Shown in pieces: positions 25,493 to 31,303 of a stretch of DNA of 36,886 nucleotides. The stretch is from the NCBI GenBank assembly GCA_902386255.1, contig CABMII010000033.1:1-36886 (forward strand), written 5' to 3'. The position numbers and the translations under genes are program-made. Positions within the stretch are counted from its first letter, which is position 1. The number at the start of each line of letters is the position of its first letter. Below the pieces are notes generated by a model, which was given only the letters and a program-made list of their open reading frames with translations, was not told the DNA's origin and searched no databases. Origin of the DNA: an uncultured archaeon. Lineage in GTDB: Archaea; Halobacteriota; Methanosarcinia; Methanosarcinales; Methanoperedenaceae.

Positions 25493-26761
25493 ATGAGTCA
25501 CGTTATCGGATTGAAATGCAGGGAATGCGGCGCTGAGTACCCTGCCGTTATCCAGAATACATGTTATGAGTGCTTCGGTCCACTTGAAGTAAATTACGAC
25601 TGGGATTATATTTCTGACCATATCAGCAAAGAGAAAATCGCAGCAGGCCCAAAATCCATATGGAGATATGCAGACCTCCTGCCCCTTGAATCCGAGAGAC
25701 GCATCGACCTTGGCGCAGGTTTCAACACGCTTCATCACGCAGACCGCCTTGGCGCAGCGCTTGGCCTCGATGAACTTTATATCCTTGACGAATCCGTGAA
25801 TCCCACGAATTCCTTTAAAGACAGGGTAACATCAGTAGCCATTTCAAAAGCAATCGAATTCGATGTAAAAGCCGTGGGATGCGCAAGCACAGGCAACCTT
25901 GCGGCAGCCGTGGGCGCACATGCAGCGAAGGCCGGATTGCCCGCTTATATTTTCATCCCCGCCACAATAGAGCTTGGCAAGATTGTCCAGATGCTAATCT
26001 ACGGTCCCAAAGTCATCGCTGTGGAAGGCACGTACGACGACGCCAACCGCCTTGCAAGCGAAGTGGCAGACTCGCATCCGGACTGGGCCTTTGTGAACAT
26101 AAATATCCGTCCTTATTATACGGAAGGTTCAAAGACGCTTGCTTACGAAACAGCAGAGCAGTTGAAATGGCAGGTTCCCGACCATATCGTGGCCCCCATG
26201 GCAAGCGGGGCGCTACTGTGCGCCATATCCCGCGGCTACAAGGAACTTGAACGCGTTGGCCTTGTGGACAAAGCTGATGTCAGGGTTTCAGGGTCGCAGC
26301 CTCTTAATTGTTCACCAATATCCTGCGCAGTCCAGCAGAATAGCGAAGTAGTCCCTGTGAGGAACTTCGAAACTGTAGCGCACAGCCTTGCGATAGGCAA
26401 TCCTGCGGACGGGTACTATGCAAAGAAAACCATCCTGGATTCAGGGGGCTATGCGGCAACGCCTACCGATACCGAAATCATTGAAGCAATCCATCTTCTT
26501 GCAAGGACTGAAGGCATATTCACAGAACCCGCAGGAGGCACTACCATCGCAGGTTTGAAGAAACTTGTCGAGAGCGGACATATACAGCACGATGAACGCG
26601 TCGTTGTATATGTGACCGGAAACGGTCTCAAGGCGCAGGAGACTTTACTTAAGTCATTGCAGCGCCCGCCTGTGATAAAACCAATGCTTAGCGAGTTTGA
26701 AAAACTCACCGTGCCCGGTCTTGATATTCATAAACAGCAAGTGGCTCTTGCACATTCTTAA
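25493..26761 (+). CDS. thrC: Threonine synthase family PLP enzyme
   Basis: A 422-residue fold-type II PLP enzyme. An N-terminal zinc ribbon has Cys9, Cys12, Cys24 and Cys27. The PLP-binding lysine is Lys109 in NPTNSFKDR. CASTGNLAAAVGAHAAKAG provides the phosphate loop. Threonine synthase makes threonine from phosphohomoserine. In Methanosarcinales a paralogue acts as cysteate synthase in coenzyme M formation, and this cannot be excluded by eye. The gene is followed after 11 bp by a MoaD/SAMP-type protein, which raises the possibility of a sulfur-transfer role. The N-terminal ribbon and length fit threonine synthase best. Confidence 0.85.
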   Translation: MSHVIGLKCRECGAEYPAVIQNTCYECFGPLEVNYDWDYISDHISKEKIAAGPKSIWRYADLLPLESERRIDLGAGFNTLHHADRLGAALGLDELYILDESVNPTNSFKDRVTSVAISKAIEFDVKAVGCASTGNLAAAVGAHAAKAGLPAYIFIPATIELGKIVQMLIYGPKVIAVEGTYDDANRLASEVADSHPDWAFVNINIRPYYTEGSKTLAYETAEQLKWQVPDHIVAPMASGALLCAISRGYKELERVGLVDKADVRVSGSQPLNCSPISCAVQQNSEVVPVRNFETVAHSLAIGNPADGYYAKKTILDSGGYAATPTDTEIIEAIHLLARTEGIFTEPAGGTTIAGLKKLVESGHIQHDERVVVYVTGNGLKAQETLLKSLQRPPVIKPMLSEFEKLTVPGLDIHKQQVALAHS

Positions 26762-26772
26762 AGGTGATACAA

Positions 26773-27048
26773 ATGGTCAAAATAAGATTTTCATCTGCAT
26801 TGAGCAATGTTACCCATGCTCGCGAAACGACCCTGGAACTCGGCGATACGACAGTAAAAACCGTGCTGGATAAACTTGTTGAACAATTCGGCCCGGATTT
26901 TGAGCGCCGCATCCTTGACAAAGGCGAAGTGAGGCGGTTTGTCAACCTGTATGTGAACGGCGAGGATATCAGGCATTTAAATGGCCTGGCAAGCCCAGTT
27001 AAGGACGCAGATGAGATATCCATACTCCCGGCAGTGAGCGGCGGATAA
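26773..27048 (+). CDS. MoaD/ThiS-type ubiquitin-like protein (SAMP-like)
   Basis: A 91-residue beta-grasp protein ending in Gly-Gly (AVSGG), the residue pair that is adenylated or thiocarboxylated by E1-like enzymes. The ATG at 26773 has AGGTGAT just upstream, while a GTG at 26764 is inside that site. Members carry sulfur for molybdopterin, thiolated tRNA or amino-acid synthesis, or act as protein modifiers (SAMPs) in archaea. It is the second gene of a pair with the threonine synthase gene and converges on the Lon-like gene 10 bp away. No E1-like gene is in the window. Confidence 0.85.
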   Translation: MVKIRFSSALSNVTHARETTLELGDTTVKTVLDKLVEQFGPDFERRILDKGEVRRFVNLYVNGEDIRHLNGLASPVKDADEISILPAVSGG

Positions 27049-27058
27049 GACTACCGTT

Positions 27059-28897
27059 TTATTTTTTATTCAAACGTCTTACAATTAAGATTGCGGCGAC
27101 TGCAGCAATCGCTTCAAAAGCCGGAACTGGTTTTGTTGGTGTTTTTGCTGTAGCTGCCTGAGTGGGTACAAGCTCGGGTACGTAAGGAGTAACGGTAGGT
27201 TTTACAGGTACTTTATTCGAGGCTACGGCATGGGAATTAAGAATAACCGATGTTTTTGCTACCATTTTCGCATATGAATACTGGGATATTTCATCGAAGG
27301 TACTGTTCAGCGTTTCTGCATATTCATAAGCGCTTACCGCAAGCGTTGGTTCTACACCATTCATCCTTGCTTCGTTTATTGCGGCTTCCGCATCAGCGGC
27401 GCTCTGTTCTATCTTTTTGTTTGCATCATCAACCCCCAATAACCCTATGGCTGTACTTGATCTCACGGTGATTTGAAGGGAGTCGAATATAGCACCTGAA
27501 TAATACCCGCGCTGCATCTCCTGCTGGGCGAGGGTTATATCATTATCAGTACCTGAAATAACGGGATGCCCGCTGCTTTCAGTCAGGAGCGCCTGAACGT
27601 AGGTACTGATTGATTGCGCCTGGCTCAGGTACCAGCCTGCGCGGTCTTTCAACGTATTTTCAGGTATGATTTTTCCTGTAGGCAAGGCAAGCGTCAGCCA
27701 CCATTGTGCCGTGCGCGCCCTTTCATTTGCAAAAGCAAGGGATTGGATCTTTTCTGCAGAATCGTTAAGGCTTCTGGCGTCGTTCAGTCTTGCCCTTGCA
27801 GCCGTTATCCTGGATTCAGCCGCCCCAACCGCTCCCACATCGCTCACACCGTACAGTTTAAAATTTTCAAGGTCTTTCTCTGAACTCTGTATCTGGTTTT
27901 GAACACTATCGTCAAGCCCGGCAAGATATTGTTCTTTATTTGAAGCTTTGCTGTATCCGTAATTCCACTGGGCAATGCGGATGTCTATCATGGAGTTAAA
28001 ATAAAGAGAAGTCGCAGCGTAATATTTCTTTTCGTTATACATATTATTCGCATTCACCTGGATTTCTTTAGCCTGGTTCATGAAAGTATCATCCTTTACC
28101 TGTGAAGCAACTCCTTCGTACATATCGCCTGATTCATTTTTCAACCTGGCCGCAAGAGGTTCAAGCAAATTGAGATAATCCGGCGTAATGATAGTGCCAT
28201 TGTATGTCGGTTTATTGATATCATGGCCTGTAAACGCCAGAACAGCATCCTGAATAGTACCTACTTCTTTAACATCAACATTTAGTTTTTTCCCGAGTTC
28301 AACTACATCGACGTTTTCGGTCGTTACCTGGTTGACAATAAATGGACCATTTGTCCTGCTGGTGGTATTCTGGATGGTAACCGTGCTCTGCCCCTGCGGA
28401 ATGAGGAAAAGTGTGGCATTGCTTGCCGCCGCAGCCTCAAGCTTATAAGGAATACCTCCGACCGGTCCTATCGACTCATCCGGGTTTATCATGCCTGTCA
28501 TGACTACCCCGGGCTTCACCGTCCAGTTGTTTACGGCAGCAATTGTAGCCACGGTCAGAGCCCCGCCCGCCGATGGCCCTCCTATGATTGGCGAACTTAT
28601 ATCAATAATATAGTAAAAATCATACGCTTTTTCATCTATACCCAACACGTCAGAAGCCACCATCGCCGCAATCCTCGCCGAACCCTGCAAATCGACCTGT
28701 GTATAAGGATTCGTGTCCACAAAAACATGACCCGTACCGTTGGTGACTATCACCGTGGCGCCAAGAAGAATACCTTCATCACCGCCGTCCGTGGTTCTAT
28801 CAGCAACGAGCGGGATTGAGACGCCGCCTTCAAGTGCGTGAGCGCTGTTCAAAGTAGCCAGAAACACTAAAAATAACAACAAAAATTTATTGGACAT
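27059..28897 (-). CDS. Secreted Lon-type (S16) protease with C-terminal membrane/sorting tail
   Basis: A 612-residue protein. The ATG at 28897 has AGGA eight bases upstream and starts a clean signal peptide (MSNKFLLLFLVFLATLNSAHA); a start 24 bases earlier has neither. Residues about 25-230 are a Lon proteolytic domain with the Ser-Lys dyad Ser109 (GGPSAGGAL) and Lys152 (GGIPYKLEAA), 43 residues apart, the spacing seen in Lon. No AAA domain is present. Residues 250-560 are helical repeats with many Asn and Gln. A Pro/Thr-rich linker (VPVKPTVTPYVPELVPTQAA) leads to PAFEAIAAVAAILIV and RRLNKK, a tail much like PGF-CTERM signals of archaeosortase substrates. The protein thus acts outside the cell, tethered to the membrane or S-layer. 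Confidence 0.85.
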   Translation of the reverse strand: MSNKFLLLFLVFLATLNSAHALEGGVSIPLVADRTTDGGDEGILLGATVIVTNGTGHVFVDTNPYTQVDLQGSARIAAMVASDVLGIDEKAYDFYYIIDISSPIIGGPSAGGALTVATIAAVNNWTVKPGVVMTGMINPDESIGPVGGIPYKLEAAAASNATLFLIPQGQSTVTIQNTTSRTNGPFIVNQVTTENVDVVELGKKLNVDVKEVGTIQDAVLAFTGHDINKPTYNGTIITPDYLNLLEPLAARLKNESGDMYEGVASQVKDDTFMNQAKEIQVNANNMYNEKKYYAATSLYFNSMIDIRIAQWNYGYSKASNKEQYLAGLDDSVQNQIQSSEKDLENFKLYGVSDVGAVGAAESRITAARARLNDARSLNDSAEKIQSLAFANERARTAQWWLTLALPTGKIIPENTLKDRAGWYLSQAQSISTYVQALLTESSGHPVISGTDNDITLAQQEMQRGYYSGAIFDSLQITVRSSTAIGLLGVDDANKKIEQSAADAEAAINEARMNGVEPTLAVSAYEYAETLNSTFDEISQYSYAKMVAKTSVILNSHAVASNKVPVKPTVTPYVPELVPTQAATAKTPTKPVPAFEAIAAVAAILIVRRLNKK

Positions 28898-28946
28898 ATC
28901 AGTTTTCCTGCAAATACTCATATATTAGATAAAATACTTAAAACCA

Positions 28947-29837
28947 ATGTTTATGCACCTCAATGACCCTTATACTATCCCATACAAAGGTATTTACGCA
29001 GTGGCTGACCGAAAAAACGAATATGTTGAAATAATGGAACACTCCAACTGCTACGGGGGTTCTGCGTGGGCTTTATACCATTATTCAAAGAGCCCGCTCG
29101 TCATGAAAAGCCGCGCTGTGGGGGATATGATGCGTTACCTTGTAAAAGTGGGGAATTCGTCTCTTCTTCTTCGCTCTTCAACTGCCGCCGCGGGTATTGA
29201 ATCTGTTCTTGTAAATGATGACGAGATTGAAATAACCTACAGCGGTCTTGGCGGCGGCGGCGTGGGCGCAACGACATGCAGGGCATATGCAAACGGGGTT
29301 CTTCGATGCAATATTACAGAGTCAGGCGGAGGAAAACGCGCAAGCGGCACAATCGTTGTCCCACGGAGGGAAAGGGTGCTTATAGGAATCGATAATACCG
29401 ACTCAAAAGAGGTTGGAGCGACATGGACGCTGGCGCACAATATCGCAGACGCAGTTGATTCAAATGAGCATAAATACATCTCCCATACCCTTGTCCAGCT
29501 TTACCCGGTTCCTGATAAGACCCAGAACTGTGTGGCTACCGTACTTGAATTTGCCTGTACCCGCGGAGCAAGGGAAGAATTACTTGATATGATAAAAGAA
29601 GGACTCCTGGAATATAGCGTTTCGCAAGAGACCGGGATGGTGGCATTATCGGATTTTGATGCTTCCGCGCTCATGGAATACAGCAGGCTTTGCAGAAGTG
29701 AAATGATTTCAAAAGAACTTACTTTAAAGACCGCTCATGATAACGGCGTTGAGATTTGTATCGGGGGCAAAGGCATCATAGGCGCGCTCGCAGCATTGCC
29801 CTGGTTTTCCAGAAATGATGAATCGGTGGCGATATGA
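28947..29837 (+). CDS. Methanogenesis marker protein 11
   Basis: A 296-residue protein of the methanogenesis marker 11 family, found almost only in organisms with methyl-coenzyme M reductase. Marks are HSNCYGGSAWALYHYSKSP in the N-terminal part and GIDNTDSKEVGATWTLAHNI near residue 145, a nucleotide-binding style motif shared with the TiaS family. The function is unknown. A second ATG lies two codons after the first. The stop overlaps the next gene as ATGA. Confidence 0.8.
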   Translation: MFMHLNDPYTIPYKGIYAVADRKNEYVEIMEHSNCYGGSAWALYHYSKSPLVMKSRAVGDMMRYLVKVGNSSLLLRSSTAAAGIESVLVNDDEIEITYSGLGGGGVGATTCRAYANGVLRCNITESGGGKRASGTIVVPRRERVLIGIDNTDSKEVGATWTLAHNIADAVDSNEHKYISHTLVQLYPVPDKTQNCVATVLEFACTRGAREELLDMIKEGLLEYSVSQETGMVALSDFDASALMEYSRLCRSEMISKELTLKTAHDNGVEICIGGKGIIGALAALPWFSRNDESVAI

Positions 29838-31303
29838 AAACCGCTGTATTGGGCATTGATGCAGTTGTTTTGGGTCTTCTTGACAGCGGCGTAAGAAACG
29901 TGACAGGCGTCCCCGGCTTTCCTGTGACTGGACTTATGGATGCTCTCAAAGACACTGAATTCGGGGACTTAAGGCACGAATGGTCGGTCAATGAAAAGGT
30001 TGCGCTTGAAATAGCGCTTGGTTCATCTGTGTGCGGAGAACGCAGCGCGGTGATTACAAAGCATGTGGGAATGAATATACTCGCAGACCCGCTTGTGACT
30101 TCGGCAACGCACACCATAGGCGCAGGCGTGGTCATAATTGCGGGAGACGACCCCGGCATCCAGAAATCCCAGAACGAGCAGGATTCGAGATTTTACGGGC
30201 TTCTTGCTGAGGTTCCTGTATTTGACCCTTCGACAGCTGAAACTGCCTACCTTTGCATTAAAGAGGCGTTTCTTTTATCAGAAAAAGTGAGAACTCCTGT
30301 AATCATCAGGCTTACAGACAGATTACTGAAAAAAGAGGGTAAAATTACGCGGAAGAAAAGCGAAAATGCCGCGTCGCCTCTTGATAAGAAAATATGGCAG
30401 CTTACGATGCGGGGCAAGCACGAACGATTCCACAGGGAGTCCTATCCTGAAATGTGCAGGTATGCCGAAAATTCAAAACTGAACACATTCACAAAAAAAG
30501 ACGAAATCGGAATAATCTCATCAGGGTTTCCAGCATCACTTGTTGATTCTATCGTATCCCCCGATTTTTCCCACCTTTCCATCACAACTGTAAATCCTTT
30601 GCCTCTTGATTTGATTAACCGTTTCATAAGGGGGCATAAGCGCATCCTTGTCGTTGAAGAAACCGAACCAGTTATTGAAAAACAGATTTCAGGAAAGGTA
30701 TTGGGGAAACTGACCGGGCACCTGCCATTCGGAATTATTGAAGTAACTGATATCCAAAAAGCGATTGGAGATATGAAGAAAGATAATGTGTCACGCAAAA
30801 TAACCCCGGAGACTATAAAGAAGCGTGGAGCCCGCCCTTTATGCGAAGACTGTCCGTACCTGCCCCTGTATAAAGCTGTAAAAGAACTGGATGTGCCTGT
30901 CGCGGGCGACCTCGGATGCTCGGTATTGACATCATCACCGCCGCTATCTCTTCTTGACGCAGCTTTTTCCCTTGGCTCATCCATCGGCACAGCCTGCGGT
31001 TTTAACAGGAAAGGGATTGCGATTATCGGAGATTTCGGCCTCGCGCATTCAGGAATCCAGGGACTTATCAACGCAGTCCATAACGGGCATGAAGTGGTGG
31101 TGATTGTCCTGCAAAACGAGGTGGCTGCTATGACTGGCGGGCAGGCCGTTCCTGATTTGACAGAACTTGTCAGGTCTTATATTAACGATACTGAGATAAT
31201 ATACCCCCAGTCTGATATTGACATGAAAACGTTGCTTGAGAAAAAACTCAAAGCCAATGGGATTTCCGTAATTTTGGCAAGAGCGAAGTGCCCGAGATTT
31301 TGA
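29834..31303 (+). CDS. IorA-like thiamine-diphosphate enzyme without the ferredoxin domain
   Basis: A 489-residue protein like the alpha subunit of indolepyruvate:ferredoxin oxidoreductase. The Pyr-type domain is N-terminal (TGVPGFPVTGLMDAL, NEKVALEIALGSSVCGERSAV). RPLCEDCPYLPLY matches the cysteine motif before the TPP domain. The TPP domain shows GDLGCSVL and IGDFGLAHSGIQGLINAVHN, then AAMTGGQ. True IorA is about 600-650 residues with a two-cluster ferredoxin tail; here the protein stops at KCPRF with no CxxCxxCxxxC. No IorB gene is adjacent. The 4-bp overlap with mmp11 suggests a joint role in a methanogen-specific path; the substrate is unknown. Confidence 0.8.
   Translation: MKTAVLGIDAVVLGLLDSGVRNVTGVPGFPVTGLMDALKDTEFGDLRHEWSVNEKVALEIALGSSVCGERSAVITKHVGMNILADPLVTSATHTIGAGVVIIAGDDPGIQKSQNEQDSRFYGLLAEVPVFDPSTAETAYLCIKEAFLLSEKVRTPVIIRLTDRLLKKEGKITRKKSENAASPLDKKIWQLTMRGKHERFHRESYPEMCRYAENSKLNTFTKKDEIGIISSGFPASLVDSIVSPDFSHLSITTVNPLPLDLINRFIRGHKRILVVEETEPVIEKQISGKVLGKLTGHLPFGIIEVTDIQKAIGDMKKDNVSRKITPETIKKRGARPLCEDCPYLPLYKAVKELDVPVAGDLGCSVLTSSPPLSLLDAAFSLGSSIGTACGFNRKGIAIIGDFGLAHSGIQGLINAVHNGHEVVVIVLQNEVAAMTGGQAVPDLTELVRSYINDTEIIYPQSDIDMKTLLEKKLKANGISVILARAKCPRF

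Follow-up and report, generated by a model that had tools for sequence, protein, structure and literature searches.

A short IorA-like TPP enzyme encoded beside methanogenesis marker 11 as a candidate 2-oxosuberate decarboxylase of coenzyme B biosynthesis in part of the Halobacteriota

The stretch of DNA analysed here (the window) comprises 36,886 nt of an uncultured Methanoperedenaceae archaeon (GCA_902386255.1, contig CABMII010000033.1, positions 1-36,886, forward strand) and encodes methanogenesis marker 11 (MMP11) and a short IorA-like TPP enzyme, the two genes being joined by a stop/start overlap (Table 1). This arrangement had been proposed in a first-pass annotation, and both open reading frames were indeed found at these coordinates. 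A secreted Lon (S16)-like protein (27059-28921) is the divergent neighbour of MMP11, likewise in the related genome G104 (locus L206), and a threonine synthase gene (25493-27048) lies directly upstream of that of a SAMP1/ThiS-like protein with a GG end. The threonine synthase and the SAMP1-like carrier were considered as pathway genes and rejected, since they are not kept beside MMP11 in G104. The genome of the window (G000, 96% complete) gave no mcrA match, an absence that is probably an assembly gap of the MAG because three relatives carry mcrA.

Table 1. Features of the window discussed in the text, with the evidence for each.
Feature	Coordinates	Strand	Basis
AksA-type short synthase, 385 aa	16574..17731	-	664 bits to AksA alignment A8
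MMP11 (methanogenesis marker 11), 296 aa	28947..29837	+	TIGR03280 355.8 bits, cut-off 255.8
ATGA stop/start overlap, 4 bp	29834..29837	+	sequence; same 4-bp overlap in many relatives
Short IorA-like TPP enzyme, 489 aa, candidate 2-oxosuberate decarboxylase	29834..31303	+	Pfam TPP_enzyme_N and TPP_enzyme_C
Catalytic Glu54 codon, NEK motif	29993..29995	+	invariant in alignment A4; aligned with IorA and ALS-type Glu
Cys337-x2-Cys340, like the OFOR CxxC proximal-cluster motif	30842..30853	+	invariant in 29 sequences; also in IorA
Cys362 codon (GDxGC), proposed third cluster ligand	30917..30919	+	invariant in 29 short enzymes; IorA alignment
Cys486 codon, proposed fourth cluster ligand, close to the protein end	31289..31291	+	invariance; IorA alignment

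The pairing of MMP11 with the TPP gene is not due to chance. Every one of the 26 f1 and f2 loci among L003-L032 has it, often with an identical 4-bp overlap, and it occurs in f4 too; in f3 the TPP gene is placed elsewhere. Restriction of the pair to this genome, which the first-pass annotation had named as grounds for abandoning its proposal, is thus excluded, the two genes being kept together across Methanosarcinia. The TPP protein was matched in 120 of 120 sampled Methanosarcinia genomes, although canonical IorA may account for some of the matches where genomes are incomplete. The direct pair is confined to part of the Halobacteriota, the combination of the TPP gene with AksA being the deeper constant.

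Against the IorA profile TIGR03336 the TPP enzyme, in which both TPP domains are recognised by Pfam, scores 334.8 bits and does not reach the curated equivalog cut-off (650.9); the match ends at position 474 of 595, and therefore the ferredoxin tail is absent. No IorB (TIGR03334) was matched in four genomes of the family (G000, G104, G113 and G106), each holding the IorA-like gene as a single copy. The earlier description of an enzyme with both catalytic domains but with neither the tail nor the IorB partner is therefore upheld, and no subunit restoring an IOR complex was found in these four genomes. Other Halobacteriota genomes often hold both a short enzyme (about 390-565 aa, lacking the C-terminal CxxCxxC) and a canonical IorA (about 590-650 aa), the latter adjoining IorB where looked at, e.g. 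in G136. The C-terminal 2x[4Fe-4S] ferredoxin domain is found in all 20 canonical IorA proteins and in none of the 30 short-type rows. Likewise, a 50-protein tree places the 20 canonical proteins on one side of a branch (support 100/99) and all short forms outside it, among them the 565-aa protein of L203, which was called IorA by the length cut-off yet has no ferredoxin tail and groups with the short forms. The TPP enzyme and IorA share the Pyr/PP domain order, the NEK Glu, the GD..N TPP motif and the four proximal-cluster cysteines, whereas the former lacks the C-terminal ferredoxin domain and IorB, belongs to a separate clade and has a different gene neighbourhood. In the Methanomicrobia forms the middle domain is mostly lost too, and a decarboxylase-like Pyr-PP core remains. 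Foldseek matched the predicted model of the TPP enzyme to OFOR alpha subunits and acetolactate-synthase-type enzymes; a single-sequence search of the PDB with the TPP enzyme returned no match.

Comparison of the TPP-site residues, a check suggested with the first-pass annotation, showed that Glu54, Asp400 and Asn428 of the short enzyme occur also in IorA, ALS-type and ComDE-like enzymes. All 29 short enzymes compared have Cys337, Cys340, Cys362 and Cys486, which align with cysteines of IorA, and the CxxC pair corresponds to the CXGC motif of 2-oxoacid:ferredoxin oxidoreductases, where it binds the proximal cluster (PMC5020499). Since these four ligands, so assigned by homology, are kept, the short TPP enzyme probably retains a [4Fe-4S] cluster next to TPP. 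Therefore, the missing tail does not by itself imply non-redox chemistry, as had been argued for this protein; tailless OFORs, e.g. StOFOR, can still be redox enzymes (PMC5020499). On the other hand, non-oxidative decarboxylation by StOFOR1 needs neither the cluster nor CoA (PMC5020499), which makes a cluster-bearing decarboxylase chemically reasonable. It is the gene context that favours a non-redox reaction of the TPP enzyme.

In Methanomicrobia one operon comprises MMP11, a radical SAM protein, the TPP gene, AksA, AksD, AksE and DUF7714. DUF7714 (L073:8710-9510, L123:11811-12770, L196:14054-14890) is recurrent in aks operons and next to paired MMP11 and radical SAM genes, and distantly resembles XcbA of bacterial coenzyme M synthesis. 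The TPP gene adjoins AksA and/or AksD/E in families f3, f6, f13 and f28, even where MMP11 lies elsewhere, and it adjoins AksA in Methanosarcina (L203). The AksA proteins linked to it are short (about 375-407 aa) and differ from the LeuA encoded next to IlvB. NCBIfam profiles do not separate AksD/E from LeuC/D; the small subunits linked to the TPP gene in Halobacteriota carry YLR[T/S/R], which we read by an assumed YLRT rule. In the window itself AksA is not adjacent to the TPP gene but about 11 kb away, which counts against a role as decarboxylase; alignment A8 includes this very AksA, scoring 664 bits, and the longer LeuA-like paralogue of the genome reaches 439.9.

A different solution was observed in Methanomethylicia, where the gene order is AksA, Mmp4/MtxX, AksD, AksE, an ALS-type TPP enzyme, MMP11 and a GMC oxidoreductase, and L137 and L138 likewise hold MMP11, AksA and the ALS-type enzyme together. 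Thus, in Methanomethylicia and Methanofastidiosa-like genomes the slot of the short TPP enzyme between the aks genes and MMP11 is occupied by an unrelated acetolactate-synthase-type protein, which scores under the acetolactate synthase cut-off, belongs to a different TPP subfamily and, unlike the short enzyme, has a TPP_enzyme_M domain and no cluster cysteines. Two distinct TPP families in one pathway slot indicate a TPP-dependent step on the product of the pathway, and the ALS-type enzyme likely catalyses the same reaction as the short one. Mmp4/MtxX and the GMC-type FAD oxidoreductase recur in the Methanomethylicia aks-MMP11 cluster (L101:3555-12083 and similar loci). The idea of a short TPP enzyme universal in methanogens was rejected, as none of the tested genomes of Methanobacteriota and Methanomethylicia has one. 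In the Methanobacteriales and Methanococcales tested, neither a short TPP enzyme nor a linked TPP gene was found, which counts against a decarboxylase role, and an AksD/E-MMP11 linkage in Methanobacteriales was set aside as evidence owing to YLIY/YLVL-type small subunits and ambiguous annotation of the large subunit.

The co-occurrence survey proposed along with the first-pass annotation revealed that the short TPP enzyme follows AksA. In a set of 34 Halobacteriota genomes searched for both proteins, it was found in 12 of the 13 with an AksA-type protein above 500 bits and in 1 of the 21 others (Fisher p 3e-7, counting related genomes as separate and making no correction for phylogeny). The two exceptions both count against the association: G291 has AksA without a short TPP enzyme, and G244 a divergent short enzyme without AksA. 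Families f9 and f11, which we take to be probably ANME-1 and Methanonatronarchaeia, are mcrA-positive and yet largely without MMP11 (a weak match in G185), short TPP enzyme or AksA above 500 bits; G195 has an ambiguous 385-aa synthase at 411 bits. Examples from these families are G123, G170, G125 and G143, with mcrA and no clear AksA-type synthase, short TPP enzyme or MMP11; the joint absence speaks for the decarboxylase reading. The radical SAM protein scored at least 381 bits in 12 of 12 AksA-positive Halobacteriota genomes tested for it. In f9/f11 it gave weak, paralogue-level matches only (at most 125 bits in four genomes tested), and nothing above 80 bits was found in the non-Halobacteriota genomes tested; as a universal enzyme of coenzyme B synthesis it was rejected, there being no ortholog-level match outside Halobacteriota among the genomes tested.

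Methyl-coenzyme M reductase takes its electrons from coenzyme B, which is needed for methane formation. White reportedly found that alpha-ketosuberate is decarboxylated to 7-oxoheptanoate in cell extracts. The pathway passes through 2-oxosuberate and a semialdehyde, with enzymes described as unidentified (PMC3087415), and the route was termed still unknown in 2025 (PMC12068725); the literature searched assigned no gene to the steps after 2-oxosuberate. A decarboxylation of 2-oxosuberate is chemically expected, and the genomic association with aksA/D/E which its enzyme should display is present for the short TPP enzyme. Because its gene travels with the carbon-chain genes of coenzyme B, this protein is the best candidate for the step, and we consider that in part of the Halobacteriota it is likely to decarboxylate 2-oxosuberate (alpha-ketosuberate) on the way to coenzyme B. 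The chain is extended from 2-oxoglutarate to 2-oxosuberate by AksA, AksD/E and AksF, and the TPP enzyme would convert 2-oxosuberate to 7-oxoheptanoate with no oxidation; the aldehyde would then become a thiol and be coupled to threonine phosphate, and MMP11 would, less certainly, act via its TiaS-like kinase domain in a later ATP-dependent step (threonine joining or phosphorylation). We infer the substrate, the product and the non-oxidative course of the TPP reaction from sequence. The first-pass annotation had already suggested a coenzyme pathway specific to methanogens for the enzyme: its tracking of the aks genes and the non-redox TPP family in the same slot elsewhere speak for a TPP reaction in a coenzyme pathway.

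It appears unlikely that the TPP enzyme instead oxidises 2-oxosuberate via the [4Fe-4S] cluster, with ferredoxin as the electron acceptor, and releases an acyl (pimeloyl-type) product in place of the aldehyde. The match of its four cysteines to the OFOR proximal cluster, the redox activity of tailless OFORs such as StOFOR (PMC5020499) and the co-occurring radical SAM protein would suit such a reaction, but in the family of the window the IorB partner is missing, in the Methanomicrobia forms much of the middle domain is also gone, and the ALS-type enzyme fills the same slot without these cysteines. That the protein is a vestigial or alternative indolepyruvate/aryl-pyruvate ferredoxin oxidoreductase served by some other partner would agree with IorA being the closest described family; this is nevertheless very improbable given the sub-threshold score, the position outside the canonical IorA clade (100/99), the separate canonical IorA kept in most other Halobacteriota examined, beside IorB where checked, and the linkage of the TPP gene to aks and not to aromatic metabolism. 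It is likewise very improbable that the enzyme serves coenzyme M synthesis as a second sulfopyruvate decarboxylase, for all the similar chemistry, the similar Pyr-PP layout of the short Methanomicrobia form and the closeness, in L066, of MMP11 to genes for cysteate synthase and ComDE, because nothing matched TIGR03845 or TIGR03846 at 1e-3, identity to the ComDE-like L066 protein is about 20% with no cysteine in common, and comDE of M. acetivorans is located elsewhere (PMC12068725). ComDE is better regarded as a functional analogue of the TPP enzyme, performing a TPP-dependent decarboxylation in a thiol-coenzyme pathway, yet lacking the cysteine motif and linked to coenzyme M genes rather than aks.

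Besides the putative 2-oxosuberate decarboxylase, the locus provides a clue to MMP11, for which phrase searches of the literature found no paper. Residues about 141-295 form a TiaS-type TCKD/FLD ATP-dependent kinase domain (Pfam TiaS_TCKD 6.8e-14), and in the predicted model (pLDDT 93.6) this C-terminal half superimposes on TiaS (3amt_A) with Z 20.7 and rmsd 2.2 over 152 residues. D149, T151, D152 and T159 are invariant and the DDTD motif is kept, the copy in the window having Asn at position 150. The Thr aligning with Thr18 of TiaS is retained; we take the latter to be the autophosphorylated catalytic Thr, the equivalence resting on the alignment and on what is known of TiaS. In the TiaS domain ATP phosphorylates a carbonyl oxygen, followed by attack of an amine. 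MMP11 therefore has the TCKD fold, DDTD motif and Thr18 position in common with this tRNA(Ile2) 2-agmatinylcytidine synthetase but lacks the rest of it (NF040849 20.5 versus a cut-off of 600 bits); contig C46 of the window genome encodes another, weaker match, which is probably the real TiaS. We suggest, tentatively, that MMP11 serves a later phosphoryl-transfer or ligation step of coenzyme B synthesis.

MMP11 is not methanogen-specific, as had been supposed: homologues are present in Archaeoglobaceae with no mcrA match and in Actinomycetota, and it exceeds the TIGR03280 cut-off in genomes without an mcrA match, e.g. G140 and G149. Since those Archaeoglobaceae also lack AksA, its role may be a wider thiol-cofactor chemistry. 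Pairs of MMP11-like and radical SAM genes that are linked to neither AksA nor a short TPP gene occur in Archaeoglobaceae, Bathyarchaeota and Actinomycetota (L065, L066, L083-L089, L093, L094, L096, L100, L102 and L106). In L066 (6777-11794), from an Archaeoglobaceae-like genome with no mcrA match, MMP11 and radical SAM genes are followed by a cysteate-synthase-like and a fused sulfopyruvate-decarboxylase-like gene. Several Methanomicrobia have tandem MMP11 genes (L064, L074, L076, L077), the second copy being divergent and below the TIGR03280 cut-off.

It is tempting to extend the decarboxylase proposal to a scheme, in our view rather doubtful as a whole, in which the TPP enzyme, MMP11, the radical SAM protein and perhaps DUF7714 would act in coordination as the second half of the coenzyme B pathway of Halobacteriota. 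The cluster-bearing IorA derivative would decarboxylate, a LipS2-like radical SAM enzyme would insert sulfur and the TiaS-like MMP11 would join or phosphorylate using ATP, while in Archaeoglobi and Actinomycetota related MMP11-radical SAM pairs would produce different thiol cofactors.

Our analysis names a candidate decarboxylase for one group of methanogens and methanotrophs and a non-homologous one for another, and offers a first mechanistic reading of MMP11. The mcrA-bearing families f9 and f11 seem to be without this route.
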